This document shows positions 9,398 to 44,010 of a stretch of DNA of 64,000 nucleotides, piece after piece. Position numbers and translations under genes: made by a program. The DNA comes from Gottfriedia acidiceleris (GTDB lineage Bacteria > Bacillota > Bacilli > Bacillales > Bacillaceae_G): positions 62,001 through 126,000 of the forward strand of contig NZ_NESS01000006.1 in assembly GCF_002128425.1 (NCBI RefSeq). Direction: 5' to 3'. Every line of letters starts with the position of its first letter. The stretch's first letter is position 1. The notes under the pieces are model-generated. The model searched no databases, had not been told where the DNA came from, and worked only from the letters and a program-made list of their open reading frames with translations.

Positions 9398-9646
9398 AAT
9401 CAAATTGAAAATCGTCGAAGGGAACTAGTACATATATCTTCTTGCGAAAGAGAGTGGAATTCACCGGCTGAAAGATTCCTCGTATAGAAAGTATCGAACC
9501 TATCCCTGAGTCTTAAACGAAAGTTTAGGCGTATACCTTCGTTATAGGTGTCAAGCGGATATATATATTTATATCAATAAAGGTGGTACCGCGGAACAAT
9601 GACTGTTTCGTCCTTTTTATTAAGGGCGAAGCGGTCATTTTTATTT
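9398..9646 (+). promoter_or_regulatory. T-box leader (tRNA-Pro-sensing) with terminator
   Basis: Visible T-box features are the stem I apical block GAAAGAGAGT...GGCTGAAAGATTCC, the conserved AGGTGGTACCGCGG T-box at 9581-9594, and a terminator at 9597-9645 (AATGACTG... against CGGTCATT followed by T). The triplet at the specifier position is CCT at 9499-9501, a proline codon, in the context GAA-CCT-ATC. That agrees with the downstream proBA genes. Uncharged tRNA-Pro would stabilise the antiterminator and switch the operon on. The specifier assignment rests on alignment by eye. Confidence 0.93.
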
Positions 9647-9720: not shown

Positions 9721-10824
9721 GTGAAAAAACAGCGAATTGTCGTGAAAATTGGAAGCAGTTCCTTGGCAGTTAATCATGGAGGTATCTCTGAGGAACAGCT
9801 TTCTGATCATGTTGCTGCTTTGGCGCAATTGAAACAGGAAGGACATGAAGTGTTGCTGGTTACATCTGGGGCAATTGCTGCAGGTTTTTCTGCTCTTGGG
9901 TATCCAAGTCGACCTGTAACAATTAAAGGGAAGCAGGCTGCCGCGGCTGTAGGACAAAGTCTGTTAATGCAGGCGTATACGGAGGAATTCCGTAAATATG
10001 GTATCGTTACCGCGCAGCTTTTGCTGACGAGAATTGATTTTTCTAGAAAAGATCAATACAGTAATGCATATGCCACTTTAGAAGAGCTACTAAATCGTTC
10101 CTCTCTTCCAATAATCAATGAAAATGATTCAATTTCTTTAGAGGAGCTGACTTTTGGTGATAATGATATGCTGTCAGCTTTAGTGAGTGGGCTTGTTTCG
10201 GCGGATATGCTCATGATTTTTACGGATGTGAACGGTTTATATGACCAAAACCCTCAGAAAAATGCGGACGCGAAAAAGTATTATTTCCTCCCTGAGGTTA
10301 CGGAAGAAATTGCTTCTCTTGCTGAAGATGCGGGCTCAAAACTTGGGACTGGCGGTATGAAATCAAAAATCGATGCTGCAAAGACGGCACTATCTCTTGG
10401 AGTGAGTGTATTTATCGGAACAGGACGTGGACAGGAGAAGTTTTTAGATGTTTTGAAGGGTAAAGGTGATGGAACGTATATCGGTAATGCTCCTCAAAAA
10501 GTGATTAAGATGAACAAGCAATGGATCGCGCTACATTCGCTTGTTAGTGGACAAATTGAAGTAGATGCTGGGGCAGCCTCTGCCATCATTCATCATGGAA
10601 AAAGTCTTCTTCCTGCTGGTGTTACTAATGTGTCTGGGTTCTTTCGAGCGGGTGAAGTTGTGGAGGTCATCACACAACAAGGACTCTTGATAGGGAAAGG
10701 TCAATGTAGATATAGTGCAGAGGAACTACAGGATATAAAAGGGATGCAAAGTCACGTCATTCAGGCTCAAGGCGTAAGACATAGCTATGAAGTCATTCAT
10801 AGGGATAATTGGGTTTCATTTTAA
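9721..10824 (+). CDS. proB: Glutamate 5-kinase
   Basis: 367 residues. The amino-acid-kinase domain (1 to about 260) shows VVKIGSSS at the N-terminus, INENDS...FGDNDMLSA in the middle and GTGGM-x-SK. A C-terminal PUA domain follows (about 275-355). It phosphorylates L-glutamate to gamma-glutamyl phosphate, the feedback-controlled first step of proline synthesis. It starts at GTG behind AGGAGGG. The T-box leader upstream shows that its expression follows proline tRNA charging, so this is the anabolic rather than the osmotic copy (inference). Its DNA looks noticeably less AT-rich than its neighbours. Confidence 0.95.
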
Positions 10825-10990
10825 GAATAGAGAGGATCCGTTCAAGTGAAGAGGGCGGAATCCTCCGTCCTAAATCTGATTGATTCACCTAATATCTATG
10901 TAGAAGAGTCTTGGATGATCGTTCCAAGTTGTCAAAGTTAAACATGCCTCAAGTTTTTATATTTTGAATCTTTAAAAGGAGGAAATGAAG

Positions 10991-12238
10991 ATGAATGAAG
11001 TATTAGAAAAGGGACAAAAAGCGAAAAAGATAGCTGGAGAACTTGTTCTCAAATCCACAGTTCAAAAAAACAAGGCACTTGCTGCGATTGCGGATCAATT
11101 GATAATAGAAACACCCTATATTTTGGAGGAGAACAAAAGAGATATTGAAGTAGGTAAAGCAAATGGAATGTCTGCTTCTATACTTGACCGCCTTACGCTG
11201 AATGAACAGCGCATTATTGATATGACAGAGGGTATCCGGCAGCTAATTGATTTGCGTGATCCTGTTGGAGAATGTGTAACCACATGGGAAAGACCGAATG
11301 GATTGTCTATTCAAGAAATGCGTGTGCCACTAGGTGTTGTCGGGATGATTTACGAAGCGCGACCGAATGTAACTGTGGATGCGGCCACAATTTGCTTGAA
11401 AACAGGAAACGCAGTGATCTTGCGTGGCAGTTCTTCCGCTACTTATTCTAACAAAGCCATCGTAGCTGTCATTCACCGAGCTCTTAAACAAACGAGCTTG
11501 CCTCCAGAAAGCGTACAGCTCATTGAAGATACGTCACGATATAGTGCAAAGCAGCTGTTTACATTAAATGAGTATTTGGATGTTCTTATCCCAAGAGGTG
11601 GCAAACAGCTAATAGATACTGTAGTGAGAGAAGCGTCTGTTCCTGTATTGGAAACAGGTGCGGGAAATTGTCACATTTTCATTGATGAAACAGCGGATAA
11701 ACAGATGGCATTTGATATTATTATAAATGCAAAAACACAGCGACCATCTGTATGTAATGCAATTGAAACAATTATACTTCATGAGGAGTGGGCGCACCGA
11801 TTTGGTACCGAGCTCTTTTCTTCCTTAAAGGAAAAAGGAGTAGAGCTACGTGGAGATAAGAAGGCACTGGCTATCGATTCTTCTATTGTACCTGCTTCAG
11901 AAGAAGACTGGGGAACTGAATTTTTGTCTCTCACGCTGGCAGTCAAAATGGTCTCCTCTGTTGAAGAAGCTATTAACCACATCAATACTTATGGATCCAT
12001 GCATTCCGAAGCGATTATTACAGAAAGGGAAGAAAGTGTGAACAAGTTTTTCACGTCCGTAGATGCCGCGGCGCTCTACCATAATGCTTCGACTCGCTTT
12101 ACTGATGGTTTTGAATTCGGCTTTGGTGCAGAAATCGGCATCAGTACGCAAAAGCTACATGTAAGGGGACCAATGGGGCTTCCTGCATTGACTTCTACAA
12201 AATACGTGATTCGTGGAAATGGACAAATTCGGAGATAA
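10991..12238 (+). CDS. proA: Gamma-glutamyl phosphate reductase
   Basis: 415 residues of the ALDH-like ProA family. It reduces gamma-glutamyl phosphate to glutamate 5-semialdehyde with NADPH. Seen are [16 protein letters not shown] near 115, GGKQLI, and the catalytic cysteine in [10 protein letters not shown] at about 255, as well as the C-terminal [15 protein letters not shown]. The ATG at 10991 lies 8 bases behind AAAGGAGG. An ATG two codons earlier is too close to that site. A 166-base gap separates it from proB, but no other promoter is evident and the T-box should govern both. Confidence 0.94.
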
Positions 12239-40484: not shown

Positions 40485-40519
40485 ATCTATAAAAATTAAC
40501 ATTATTGGAGGAGAAACAA

Positions 40520-41488
40520 GTGGAATTAAAGTACATAATTAACCAAATCCAAGAAAAACAACCAAATATAAAGAGTGTATTTTTTGTAGGCTGCGGTGCT
40601 TCAAAGGCGGACTTATACCCAGCAAAGTATTTCTTAGAAGGAAACGCGAAGCAAGTTCGCACAAGCCTATTTACAGCAAATGAGTTTAACTACGCTACTC
40701 CAGTTTCCGTTGATGAAACGAGTATCGTCATCACATGCTCATTAGGAGGCACTACTCCGGAAACTGTCACAGCCACTTCAAAAGCAAAAGAGCTAGGAGC
40801 ACATGTAATTGCGGTTACACATGTTGAAGATGCTGCTATCACGAAAGATGCTGATTATGTTGTTTACCATGGTTGGGAAGCAAACTATGCAGCTAAATTA
40901 GAAAAAATGACGAAGGTTCTTGGCCTTGCTGTTGAAATTCTTAACCAATTTGAAGGATATGAGTATTACGATAAAATGTTAGATGGCTTCTCAAAAATCT
41001 ATGCTCTAATTGAATCATCGGTAGAGACTGTCCTACCACAAGCAAAAGCATTCGCTGATGCATACAAAGATGAGCCTTATATTTATGTAATGTCTAGCGG
41101 AGCAACTTATGAAGTAGCTTACTCTTTTTCAATCTGCTTACTAATGGAAATGCAATGGATCAACTCAGGAAGCTTCCACGATGGCGAATTCTTCCACGGA
41201 CCTTTCGAAATCGTAGACAAAGATGTACCATTCCTATTATTAATGAATGACGGCCACACTAGAGCAATGGATTCAAGAGCACTAGAATTCCTAAATCGCT
41301 TCGGTGCAAAAACGACTGTTGTTGATGCAAAAGACTTCGGATTAGGCTCCCTAATTGCAAAAGAAGTAGTTGACTACTTTAACCCAATGCTAATTACTGG
41401 TGTAATCAGAACATATGCAGAACAATTATCAATTGCTCGTAATCACCCACTGACAAAAAGAAGATATATGTGGAAATTAGAATACTAA
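40520..41488 (+). CDS. frlB: Fructoselysine-6-phosphate deglycase, copy 1 (FrlB-like)
   Basis: 322 residues with two SIS sugar-isomerase domains. The first has VGCGASKADLYPAKYFL and CSLGGTTPETV; the second has MSSGATYEVAYSFSICLLMEMQW and GEFFHGPFEIVD. The C-terminus HPLTKRRYMWKLEY is characteristic of FrlB. It splits fructoselysine 6-phosphate into lysine and glucose 6-phosphate. GTG 40520 is chosen because it follows GGAGGAG and aligns with the start of the second copy. It is the last gene of the operon. Confidence 0.9.
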   Translation: MELKYIINQIQEKQPNIKSVFFVGCGASKADLYPAKYFLEGNAKQVRTSLFTANEFNYATPVSVDETSIVITCSLGGTTPETVTATSKAKELGAHVIAVTHVEDAAITKDADYVVYHGWEANYAAKLEKMTKVLGLAVEILNQFEGYEYYDKMLDGFSKIYALIESSVETVLPQAKAFADAYKDEPYIYVMSSGATYEVAYSFSICLLMEMQWINSGSFHDGEFFHGPFEIVDKDVPFLLLMNDGHTRAMDSRALEFLNRFGAKTTVVDAKDFGLGSLIAKEVVDYFNPMLITGVIRTYAEQLSIARNHPLTKRRYMWKLEY

Positions 41489-41507: not shown

Positions 41508-41544
41508 GCCAAACAGGTATCGTTTAAAGCGATGCCTGTTTGGC
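41508..41544 (+). terminator. Hairpin after frlB copy 1
   Basis: GCCAAACAGGTATCG pairs with CGATGCCTGTTTGGC (one mismatch) around TTTAAAG. The stem is long and strong, but no T run follows, so it may stabilise the 3' end rather than terminate. Confidence 0.6.
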
Positions 41545-41672
41545 ATGGTGATATGAATTGTTAAAAGCGGAAATAAAAAGCTAAAACTGCAAATAGAATT
41601 GGAAAGGTGCAAATAAAACTCCATAAAGAGTGAAGTCTTCCAACTATTGAAAAAGAAGTTGATGAACCCTTT

Positions 41673-42015
41673 ATGAGTAAGTAAATTACGTAATTTTGGT
41701 TTTATACTTACTCATGATCCTTTATGAGTAAGTTAGTTTCATAATTTTGTTTTTAAACTTACTCATGCCCCCTTTATGAGTAAGTTAGTTTCGTAATTTT
41801 GCTTTTAAACTTACTCATGCCCGCTTTATGAGTAAGTAAATTACGTAATTTTGGTATTGAACTTACTCATGCCCCCTTATGAGTAAGTTAGTTTCATAAT
41901 TTTGCGTTTAAACTTACTCATGACCCCTTTATGAGTAAGTTATTTTCGTAATTTTGCTTTAATACTTACTCATGACCCCTTTATGAGTAAGCTTCAAGCT
42001 TTTTTACTTACCCAT
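41673..42015. repeat. Tandem array of seven palindromic units, 52-bp period
   Basis: Seven units begin at 41673, 41724, 41776, 41828, 41879, 41931 and 41983. Each is about 43 bases, opening with ATGAGTAAGT and closing with ACTTACTCAT; the last unit is degenerate (ACTTACCCAT). Units are joined by 8-10-base CCCCTTT-type linkers. The inner part keeps a TAATTTTG block, and units 1 and 4 have an inner palindrome, AAATTACGTAATTT. An eighth half-unit follows near 42025. Each unit can fold as a hairpin. It lies in the untranslated gap between convergent frlB and frlR. Confidence 0.95.
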
Positions 42016-42076
42016 GACCCTTTCTTGAGTAAGTAACCATATCTGCACCAAAATTGACTATGTCATATTACAACAC

Positions 42077-42118
42077 AATAAAAACTTCTCCGTCATAAAC
42101 AGAGAAGTCTTTTTATTA
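42077..42118. terminator. Bidirectional terminator, frlR 3' end
   Basis: ACTTCTC and GAGAAGT arms with A runs on the left and T runs on the right, adjacent to the frlR stop. Confidence 0.8.
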
Positions 42119-42122
42119 CCAT

Positions 42123-42851
42123 TTACGTTGTAATTGTCAAAGCAATTAATTCAGTGCGTGTTTTAAAGTTAGAGGTATGGATCGGGATTTTATTTTCATC
42201 ATAAACGGTTTTATCAATATTAAATAATGTTTCACCAAGTTCACAATCTAAATATTCTGCTTCGAGCTTTCCAGCCGGCACTACAGTGATAACTTTGTGG
42301 GTAGTACAAGCATTCATGTCTACATTATATATTTTTTTTAGTACTTCATAAGTTGAACTATTTTGAAGGAAGTGAGTTGTTAAATTAGGGAAACGTTCCA
42401 ACGAATAGTGAGTTTCATCAAGTGTAAAAGGGTAGTCATCAATAAACATTAATCGAACGAGCCTTAGTATAGGAGTATTAATTGCAATATGTAGCGATTC
42501 TGCAATTTTAGGAGTAGCTTTTAATTCTTCACAAACAATAATTTGTTTGGAAGGATTTTTACCTAATTGTTTGTTAAAGTCTGTAAAACCATCAACCGAA
42601 ACTAATTCTCTTGCAATTTTAGATCGCATGACAAATGTTCCTTTTCCTTGTTTACGCTCTAGTAAGCCTTCATCGGTTAAGTCCTGGATGGCTCTTCTAA
42701 CTGTTATTCGGCTGACACCATAGATTTCACATAGCTCTGTTTCGTTCGGTAGTCTCTCACCTTGTTTATATACTTCTTGCAAAATGGAGTCCTTAATTAT
42801 TTGTTTTAATTGATCATATAAAGGCGTTGAAATTGAATTATTTAGTTTCAT
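42123..42851 (-). CDS. frlR: GntR/HutC-family regulator (FrlR-like)
   Basis: 242 residues. The N-terminal GntR winged helix spans about 1-70 (LYDQLKQIIKDSI, YGVSRITVRRAIQDLTDEGLLERKQGKGTFV), and the rest is a C-terminal UTRA effector domain. In B. subtilis FrlR represses the frl genes and responds to a phosphorylated Amadori intermediate. Three TTATATAA-type dyads lie before its own gene, before frlB2 and before the ABC operon. It is transcribed divergently from frlB2. Confidence 0.9.
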   Translation of the reverse strand: MKLNNSISTPLYDQLKQIIKDSILQEVYKQGERLPNETELCEIYGVSRITVRRAIQDLTDEGLLERKQGKGTFVMRSKIARELVSVDGFTDFNKQLGKNPSKQIIVCEELKATPKIAESLHIAINTPILRLVRLMFIDDYPFTLDETHYSLERFPNLTTHFLQNSSTYEVLKKIYNVDMNACTTHKVITVVPAGKLEAEYLDCELGETLFNIDKTVYDENKIPIHTSNFKTRTELIALTITT

Positions 42852-43041: not shown

Positions 43042-44010
43042 ATGGAATTGAATTATGTCATTTCTCAAATTAAAGAAAAGCAGCCAGAAATTAAAAGTGT
43101 ATTTTTTGTAGGATGTGGTGCCTCAAAGGCAGAATTATATCCAGCAAAATATTTCTTAGAGGCTAATGCAAAACAACTTCGTGTCAGTCTTTATACTGCA
43201 AATGAATTTAATTATGCAACTCCAGTATCTGTAGATGAAACAAGTATCGTTATTACTTGTTCACTAGGTGGATCAACTCCAGAAACGGTTGCTGCAACTA
43301 CAAAAGCAAAAGAATTAGGGGCACATGTAATTGCCGTTACATATGAAAAAGAATCAGCAATCACAAAAGATGCGGATTATGTAGTCTACCATGGCTGGGC
43401 AGCTAATTATGCAGCGAAAATGGAAAAAATGACAAAGGTTTTAGGTTTAGCAGTTGAAATCTTGGATCAATTTGAAGGCTACGAAAATTATTCGAAAATG
43501 CAAGTAGGATTTAACAATATATACGATTTAATCCAACAATCTGTTACTACAGCTCTTCCACAAGCACAGGCTTTTGCGGAAGCTTATAAAGACGATCAAG
43601 TGATTTATGTAATGTCTAGCGGCGCAACGCATGAAGTAGCGTACTCCTTCTCAATCTGTCTACTAATGGAAATGCAATGGATTAACTCAGGAACATTCCA
43701 CGATGGTGAGTTCTTCCATGGACCGTTCGAAATTGTAGACAAAGATGTACCATTCTTATTATTAATGAATGATGGTAGAACAAGAGACATGGATTCTCGT
43801 GCTCTTGAATTCTTAAATCGATTCGAAGCTAAAACGACTGTGGTAGATGCAAAAGATTTTGGTTTAGGTTCTGTCATTCCAACAGAAGTAGTAGATTACT
43901 TTAATCCAATTTTAATTTCTGGTGTATTACGAGTGTATGCAGAGCAACTAGCTAAAGTTAGAAATCATCCTTTAACAAAAAGAAGATATATGTGGAAGTT
44001 AGAATACTAA
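43042..44010 (+). CDS. Fructoselysine-6-phosphate deglycase, copy 2 (FrlB-like)
   Basis: 322 residues, the same length as copy 1 and mostly identical to it by eye, with the double SIS domain and the same HPLTKRRYMWKLEY end. It has its own FrlR-type promoter and is monocistronic. The differences cluster in the 105-185 region. Copy 2 may handle a different glycated amine, or simply raise dosage. GGAGGG precedes the ATG. Confidence 0.88.
   Translation: MELNYVISQIKEKQPEIKSVFFVGCGASKAELYPAKYFLEANAKQLRVSLYTANEFNYATPVSVDETSIVITCSLGGSTPETVAATTKAKELGAHVIAVTYEKESAITKDADYVVYHGWAANYAAKMEKMTKVLGLAVEILDQFEGYENYSKMQVGFNNIYDLIQQSVTTALPQAQAFAEAYKDDQVIYVMSSGATHEVAYSFSICLLMEMQWINSGTFHDGEFFHGPFEIVDKDVPFLLLMNDGRTRDMDSRALEFLNRFEAKTTVVDAKDFGLGSVIPTEVVDYFNPILISGVLRVYAEQLAKVRNHPLTKRRYMWKLEY

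Follow-up and report, generated by a model that had tools for sequence, protein, structure and literature searches.

Intergenic arrays of a 52-bp-period palindromic repeat in one Gottfriedia clade: candidate protein-binding sites or parasitic repeats

The window analyzed here, a 64,000-nucleotide stretch of the Gottfriedia acidiceleris genome, carries a tandem array of palindromes with a period of 52 bp that belongs to a family of intergenic arrays dispersed in this genome and among its close relatives. Because the arrays keep their spacing register and symmetric core across species while their units and other sequence are replaced, our analysis suggests an undescribed family, composed of sites for a putative protein or of parasitic repeats. 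With a probability of roughly 0.43, we read the arrays as clade-specific intergenic DNA sites, (A/C)CTCAT-N9-ATGAG(T/G), which a putative homodimer would bind on one face of the DNA, behind genes. A selfish repeat is almost as likely, and the two explanations are compatible, in that putative protein binding may be the reason why a mobile repeat was retained.

Architecture of the repeat and its gap

The window array contains six exact 43-bp units of the form ATGAGTAAGT-N23-ACTTACTCAT, with start-to-start spacings of 51, 52, 52, 51, and 52, and a seventh unit of 33 nt whose edges, ATGAGTAAGC ... ACTTACCCAT, are both inexact. An earlier note on this DNA had described seven tandem palindromic units at 41673–42015 spaced by 51 or 52 bases; these are real, except that its statement that identical ten-mers bound every unit fails for the seventh. 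Tandem Repeats Finder reports a period of 52 and 6.3 copies. The 29-bp dyad that spans the unit junction is a more conserved frame than the 43-bp unit, and the array is best framed as 29-bp dyads, ACTTACTCAT-N9-ATGAGTAAGT, separated by 23-bp T-rich spacers. In this frame the previously assigned end at 42015 is too early, as dyads run on to 42034. Given that 52 is not a multiple of three, the array is presumably a non-coding repeat. The features of the gap, in window coordinates, are as follows.

40505–41488, + strand: left neighbor, gene for a SIS-domain protein, 3' end toward the array
41508–41544, + strand: strong hairpin past the left gene, lacking a T run (-28.4 kcal/mol)
41673–42034, + strand: complete array of 52-bp period, first exact arm through final dyad repeat
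41673–41715, + strand: unit 1, arms exact (arm-pattern match)
41724–41766, + strand: unit 2, arms exact (arm-pattern match)
41757–41785, + strand: representative 29-bp dyad repeat, ACTTACTCAT-N9-ATGAGTAAGT
41776–41818, + strand: unit 3, arms exact (arm-pattern match)
41828–41870, + strand: unit 4, arms exact (arm-pattern match)
41879–41921, + strand: unit 5, arms exact (arm-pattern match)
41931–41973, + strand: unit 6, arms exact (arm-pattern match)
41983–42015, + strand: unit 7, 33 nt, both arms imperfect (read from the sequence)
42006–42034, + strand: final dyad repeat of the array, degenerate
42080–42112, - strand: intrinsic-terminator-like hairpin of the right gene
42123–42851, - strand: right neighbor, gene for a GntR/UTRA regulator, 3' end toward the array

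As previously proposed, the array occupies a convergent gap, with the forward gene at 40505–41488 facing the reverse GntR gene at 42123–42851. The best NCBIfam match of the left protein is fructoselysine-6-phosphate deglycase, at 97.1 bits far under the curated cutoff of 430, and the right protein matches GntR/UTRA at 266.9 bits against a subfamily cutoff of 269. One terminator-like stretch, AACTTACTCATGACCCCTTTATGAGTAAGTT followed by ATTTTCG, lies inside the array. Two similar deglycase-like genes flank the regulator, at 40505–41488 and 43042–44010.

Distribution and genomic placement

Across the genome of the window (G000), the exact arm pattern matched 19 times and the reversed pattern 0 times, so its recurrence is not due to chance. 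Strict dyads, allowing up to three mismatches, numbered 118 against 0 for the control. A covariance model built from 51 units returned at least 133 matches at E values up to 0.1, distributed over 26 array pieces, the weakest of these matches including two opposite-strand duplicates in one array on contig C45. All 26 pieces were examined with a Python scan, which counted 129 units in total and between 1 and 15 in each. In some cases two pieces are probably the halves of a single array divided between contigs, which brings the count to approximately 24 loci; the two sides of L090 are matched by the flanks of L070 and L072, respectively, and those of L194 by the flanks of L046 and L077 (flanks that also match L196). 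Several contigs (C2, C4, C10, C16, and C45) end in or beside 52-bp arrays, and copy numbers at those ends are therefore limited by the assembly.

Among relatives, the exact arm pattern was found in 4 of 60 genomes, all within the genus. When up to three mismatches were permitted, 11 of the 13 genomes in our genus set matched (G000 and the others, likewise designated by G numbers); the single match in G008 equals its control, leaving 10 of 13, and G001 and G004 contained zero dyads at this setting. G006 has 119 strict copies and at least 137 model matches, and 22 of its 24 array loci were taken for unit analysis (135 units), one of those omitted being a weak single match; G005 has 67 strict copies. 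A one-gene tree (654 bp), midpoint-rooted and with several open forks, groups G001, G004, and G008 with 100/100 support apart from the other ten genomes. The arrays are thus restricted to one Gottfriedia clade, occurring in 10 of 10 genomes there and in 0 of 3 in the sister clade. An order-wide scan with stricter filters matched 6 of 299 genomes, all among the eight from the genus, and 0 of the 291 others. A search of 84,980 species with the exact arm pattern retrieved 11 stretches, of which four came from two Gottfriedia-type genomes and held at least two palindromes each; the other seven were lone palindromes in other organisms, which we take to be chance. There was no match in plasmids or phages (blastn with 41640–42060 as the query), nor in IMG/VR viral contigs searched with one exact core pattern. 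The genome-wide and cross-species search suggested by the earlier note therefore reveals a dispersed family with arrays in 10 of 13 genus genomes and variable copy number.

To place the arrays relative to genes, we used the 95 that passed a stricter cut. The midpoint of none of the 95 lies inside a called gene, and the one overlap with the end of a called gene, 31 nt long, is at L200. Of these, 88 could be classified and 7 lie at contig edges. The classified arrays fall in 48 codirectional, 32 convergent, and 8 divergent gaps, against 101, 38, and 86, respectively, for background gaps of at least 100 bp at the same loci (n = 225). Divergent gaps are avoided (8/88 versus 86/225, p = 1e-7), in a comparison that uses gene calls from a simple codon-usage script and counts orthologous loci more than once. 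The window's genome by itself gives 12 codirectional, 6 convergent, and 2 divergent gaps, with 6 at edges. The median distance to a 3' end is 110 nt and that to a 5' end 224 nt; of the 48 arrays in codirectional gaps, 30 are oriented opposite to the genes and 18 the same way. Beyond the window's three, 15 sampled neighbor proteins are diverse and include an RsgA-like GTPase, LiaF, a SigJ-like sigma factor, HisJ, carbonic anhydrases, a FabH-like synthase, and a solute-binding protein; four gave no match, each against one library.

Terminator enrichment before arrays was considered and rejected, as calls were present at 42 of 112 such ends versus 72 of 211 background 3' ends (50 of 111 if hairpins of the array are counted). 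Among 61 facing 3' ends that lacked a terminator call before the array, five had one within it. A link to replication was sought with 41 model matches in two complete genomes, 10 of which were not confirmed by the stricter scan; these showed no more than a slight, non-significant deficit near the origin (KS p = 0.06). The origin was positioned by the gene that we take to be dnaA. With 27 matches oriented against the fork and 14 with it, the arrays are not clearly linked to the origin, the terminus, or the direction of the fork.

Conservation, register, and turnover of units

From 50 array consensuses, the unit reads ACTTACTCATGAACCCCTTATGAGTAACT followed by AAATTTCATCTTTTTGCTTTTTT. In these consensuses the core arms carry on average 1.76 bits of information per site, the 9-bp linker 1.32, and the spacer 1.13; the corresponding per-site differences between adjacent units are 0.044, 0.143, and 0.129. 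Dividing the difference between arrays by that within them gives a ratio of 2.17 for the core arms (left arm, 1.79; right arm, 2.92), 1.80 for the linker, and 2.61 for the spacer; with the spacer above the arms, this ratio alone is no proof of constraint. Units share one orientation in 47 of 48 array pieces from G000 and G006, three of which are single units, and only L100 is mixed.

The inner half-sites CTCAT and ATGAG are near-invariant, a single standard pair occupying each of positions 6–10 with 20–24 in 95–100 of the 101 loci, which are related by descent and hence not independent. Position 5/25 is A/T in 79 of these loci, C/G in 9, A/G in 7, and C/T in 3, so that a two-sided change from A/T to C/G is seen in 9 and a one-sided change to C or G in 10. 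The outer pairs are often mismatched, with C/C in 45 loci and C/G in 31 at position 2/28, and T/T in 23 at position 4/26. Given that the inner half-sites hardly vary and the outer pairs often fail to match, the pattern favors a double-stranded DNA site of a putative dimer over an RNA hairpin; outer pairs broken this often would hardly be expected of a selected hairpin and would be expected of a dyad read by a protein. The C/G variant at 5/25 differs among species: it makes up 11 of 14 units in G010, 17 of 42 in G005, and 5 of 20 in G011, and is rare or absent in G006 (4/134), G000 (0/128), and G007 (0/24).

Register is maintained closely. Among 208 unit lengths between 40 and 64 bp in G000 and G006, 190 are 52 bp, the others being 51 (10), 50 (3), 53 (3), 42, and 55; of the full set of 216 start distances, 26 deviate from an integer multiple of 52. 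Adjacent units (164 pairs) differ by 36 gap events versus 862 substitutions, or 1 per 23.9, and the non-coding flanks of G000 and G006 (80 windows at 7 orthologous locus pairs) by 93 versus 420, or 1 per 4.5. Insertions and deletions are thus approximately fivefold rarer in units than in flanks at the same mean divergence of 0.10 and with the same aligner (Fisher p = 5e-18 by events; p = 3e-6 by gap-free windows, 135/164 versus 42/80), in a comparison that sets paralogous units against orthologous flanks, in which neighboring pairs share units and strongly altered units may be missed. Homogenization between units could be an alternative source of the exact period. The earlier idea that sites about five helical turns apart face one side of the helix gains indirect support from the depleted insertions and deletions, but AA/TT phasing at 10.4 bp did not exceed column permutations (fraction 0.27). 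DNA curvature was likewise set aside: the arrays have an end-to-end ratio of 0.727 versus 0.845 in column-shuffled units (40 arrays), yet 21% of shuffles were as curved, in a calculation based on assumed wedge values.

Sequence turnover is extensive. In G000 and G006, unit identity is 0.90 within arrays, 0.74 between arrays, and 0.64 to 0.82 between arrays at orthologous sites (10 pairs); the earlier claim that interiors are conserved along with the arms applies within an array, and less so between arrays. Across all genomes examined, within-array identity is 0.79 (76 arrays) in a 53-bp frame with degenerate end units counted in, and the same frame yields 0.716 for orthologous-site arrays (57 pairs), 0.673 for other cross-genome comparisons (4184), and 0.684 for same-genome comparisons (809). 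Several species often have arrays at a common site, though with replaced units and a different number of copies. G000 and G006 share seven sites with both flanks aligned and six others supported by one flank or a contig end. In a set of 112 locus entries, 10 of them without an array by the Python scan, shared flanks define 19 groups, at least two of which fuse unlike sites through one-sided or paralogous flanks. One site holds 15, 2, and 7 units in different species (L078, L101, and L198), and other sites hold 2, 9, and 2 or 2, 5, and 8. Confirmed sites in the complete genomes G002 and G011 mostly have one or two units, with a maximum of five. Orientation relative to genes is constant in most shared-flank groups, the exceptions being L168, L148, and L203.

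The window's own site illustrates such turnover. The regulator has a counterpart in G005 that is 97% identical, and the other gene is matched at 91%; the orthologous gap holds no 52-bp array as far as both contig ends reach into it, and it carries instead short TGCAAATA units and the apparent two ends of a dispersed element. The assembly breaks in this gap, and an array between the two contig ends may yet exist. Any given array site therefore seems dispensable. The earlier note had regarded absence from other isolates, together with a lack of transcript or protein binding, as a sign of neutral slippage; the family is not absent, being present in 10 of 13 genus genomes and in good part at intergenic sites common to them, while the site in the window shows no array in G005, the one genome with the same gene cluster, as far as its contigs extend.

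Candidate explanations and known repeat families

In the reading that we tentatively prefer, a putative homodimeric protein would recognize the dyad in double-stranded DNA, and repeats about five helical turns apart would let several dimers load on one face behind genes. The bound candidate protein, perhaps a nucleoid protein or gyrase-like, would organize or relax DNA there, by analogy with BIME-2 arrays. We infer that unequal recombination between units could grow and shrink the arrays, replacing units as site, register, and half-sites stay. Such a binding array would explain the near-invariant inner half-sites, the symmetric change at 5/25, the register, and the persistence of sites. A more specific version, for which the odds are low, has a clade-specific candidate DNA-binding protein coating phased arrays in about two dozen gaps per chromosome and co-evolving with them; this reading stems from C/G at 5/25 being frequent across unlinked arrays in some species but scarce or missing elsewhere. 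If true, the arrays would be a dispersed, tandem, fast-turnover system of chromosomal sites, akin to small bacterial satellites under selection.

The nearly equal alternative is a selfish or neutral, non-autonomous element resembling REP or BOX, spread in the past, or still being spread, by a putative enzyme and settling where it does least harm, behind genes. Its tandem growth would come from replication slippage or unequal crossing-over, its dyad would be the recognition end of the enzyme, and its exact period would follow from tandem copying. The arrays are dispersed, intergenic, and behind genes, a location that a tolerated parasite would also fit, and such a pattern is read as a sign of parasitic repeats in PMC3049150. 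The turnover at the window's site in G005, the wide copy-number differences between species, and the short confirmed sites of G002 and G011 point the same way. Against this, no Y1 transposase (PF01797) was detected at E 0.001 in G006 or G005, with their 119 and 67 strict copies, and no longer autonomous relative was seen. Many sites are common to several species, and the depletion of insertions and deletions and the near-invariant half-sites would be unexpected of dead copies. Mobilization by a RAYT was rejected as a candidate, as PF01797 matches occur in 8 of 13 genomes and do not track copy number. Four clustered Y1-transposase-like open frames were observed in G004 (C29:292233-303620), a genome without arrays.

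A role at the RNA level, in which hairpins transcribed by read-through would stop transcription or protect 3' ends, appears improbable. Two of the 29-nt repeats give three folds (one repeat on both strands) of -9.8 to -12.7 kcal/mol, each beating 200 of 200 shuffles; the window array contains its one terminator-like stretch, arrays lie behind genes, and the symmetric change at 5/25 is also explicable by a hairpin. However, 51 aligned units display no pairing or covariation above shuffles, the outer pairs are frequently C/C or T/T, codirectional arrays more often run against the genes than with them, and no Rfam family reached its gathering score over the window array. The structured RNA suggested earlier is accordingly disfavored, and the other suggestion, a binding array or REP-type element, is consistent with our results. 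More remote still, at the margin of plausibility, is an array of CRISPR-like or recombinase sites (CRISPR, dif/Xer, or integron attC). The alternation of 29-bp, partly palindromic repeats with 23-bp spacers resembles a CRISPR layout, and the arm variant ACTTCCT resembles the left arm of dif. Unique spacers are absent, those within an array being near-copies of one another, which agrees with the earlier view that this is neither CRISPR nor simple satellite DNA. A dif/Xer site is a single 28-bp site, in contrast to the multicopy arrays, and G000 has one separate dif-like site (C12:506493-506520), one mismatch from the B. subtilis dif consensus.

By the features tested (tag, transposase, and alternating orientation), the arrays are a variant of bacterial intergenic palindromic repeats and not members of REP/BIME, although they may work like a BIME-2 or BOX array. 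With REP and BIME-2 they share short extragenic palindromes in many copies and tandem clusters. BIME-2 binds DNA gyrase according to PMC2817692. In contrast to the alternating REPs of a BIME, the Gottfriedia arrays run head-to-tail in one orientation, have a fixed 52-bp period, are confined to one clade, and occur in two copy-rich genomes (G006 and G005) that lack the Y1 transposase; the GTAG and CGTC tags are both absent from the 50-array consensus ACTTACTCATGAACCCCTTATGAGTAACT. In the main text of a survey of GTAG/CGTC REPs, the word "Firmicutes" does not occur (PMC3733652).

BOX elements of Streptococcus (boxA-boxB(n)-boxC) are likewise Firmicute intergenic repeats with a tandem middle module of varying number and are described as over-represented between convergent genes (PMC3049150). 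The Gottfriedia unit differs in being built on a dyad, and no shared end module like boxA or boxC was found at the edges of 17 loci read by eye. Neisserial intergenic mosaic elements also combine short inverted-repeat units and repeat spacers in intergenic arrays; there, according to PMC3898611, RS elements are families of 30–160 bp and dRS3 is ATTCCC N8 GGGAAT, whereas the Gottfriedia core is CTCAT N9 ATGAG with a 23-bp spacer and a fixed period, and no link to a phage integrase was seen. In the Bacillaceae, bcr1 and other Bacillus stem-loop repeats are intergenic with secondary structure, bcr1 being 147–167 bp and, judging from a title cited there, restricted to the B. cereus group (PMC2267715); the main text of that paper never uses the word "tandem". 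Among the best matches in openly licensed papers, including one query by arm letters, no title or abstract describes this array family. As a natural test case, the arrays could show whether short intergenic repeats in Firmicutes are sustained by selection, by recombination, or by a mobile enzyme, and their variable unit numbers would be potential typing markers for Gottfriedia.

Several other elements were observed in passing. A short dispersed repeat of the TGCAAATA type adjoins the window array at 41571–41640, with the same type at L207 (2330–2520), and seven more places in G005 resemble the stretch 41571–41618. Ends like GTTGATTTCCACT and GTTGATTGGAACG mark a second dispersed element, which a loose motif scan, run without a matched control, places close to 19 of the 95 arrays, for example at L107 (2320–2394), the end of L207, L045, L067, and L182; it also appears in the G005 orthologue of the window gap. 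Elsewhere in the window, positions 9406–9618 encode a T-box leader (Rfam RF00230, 107.7 bits), and the genes downstream of it, at 9721–10824 and 10985–12238, look to us like proB and proA.
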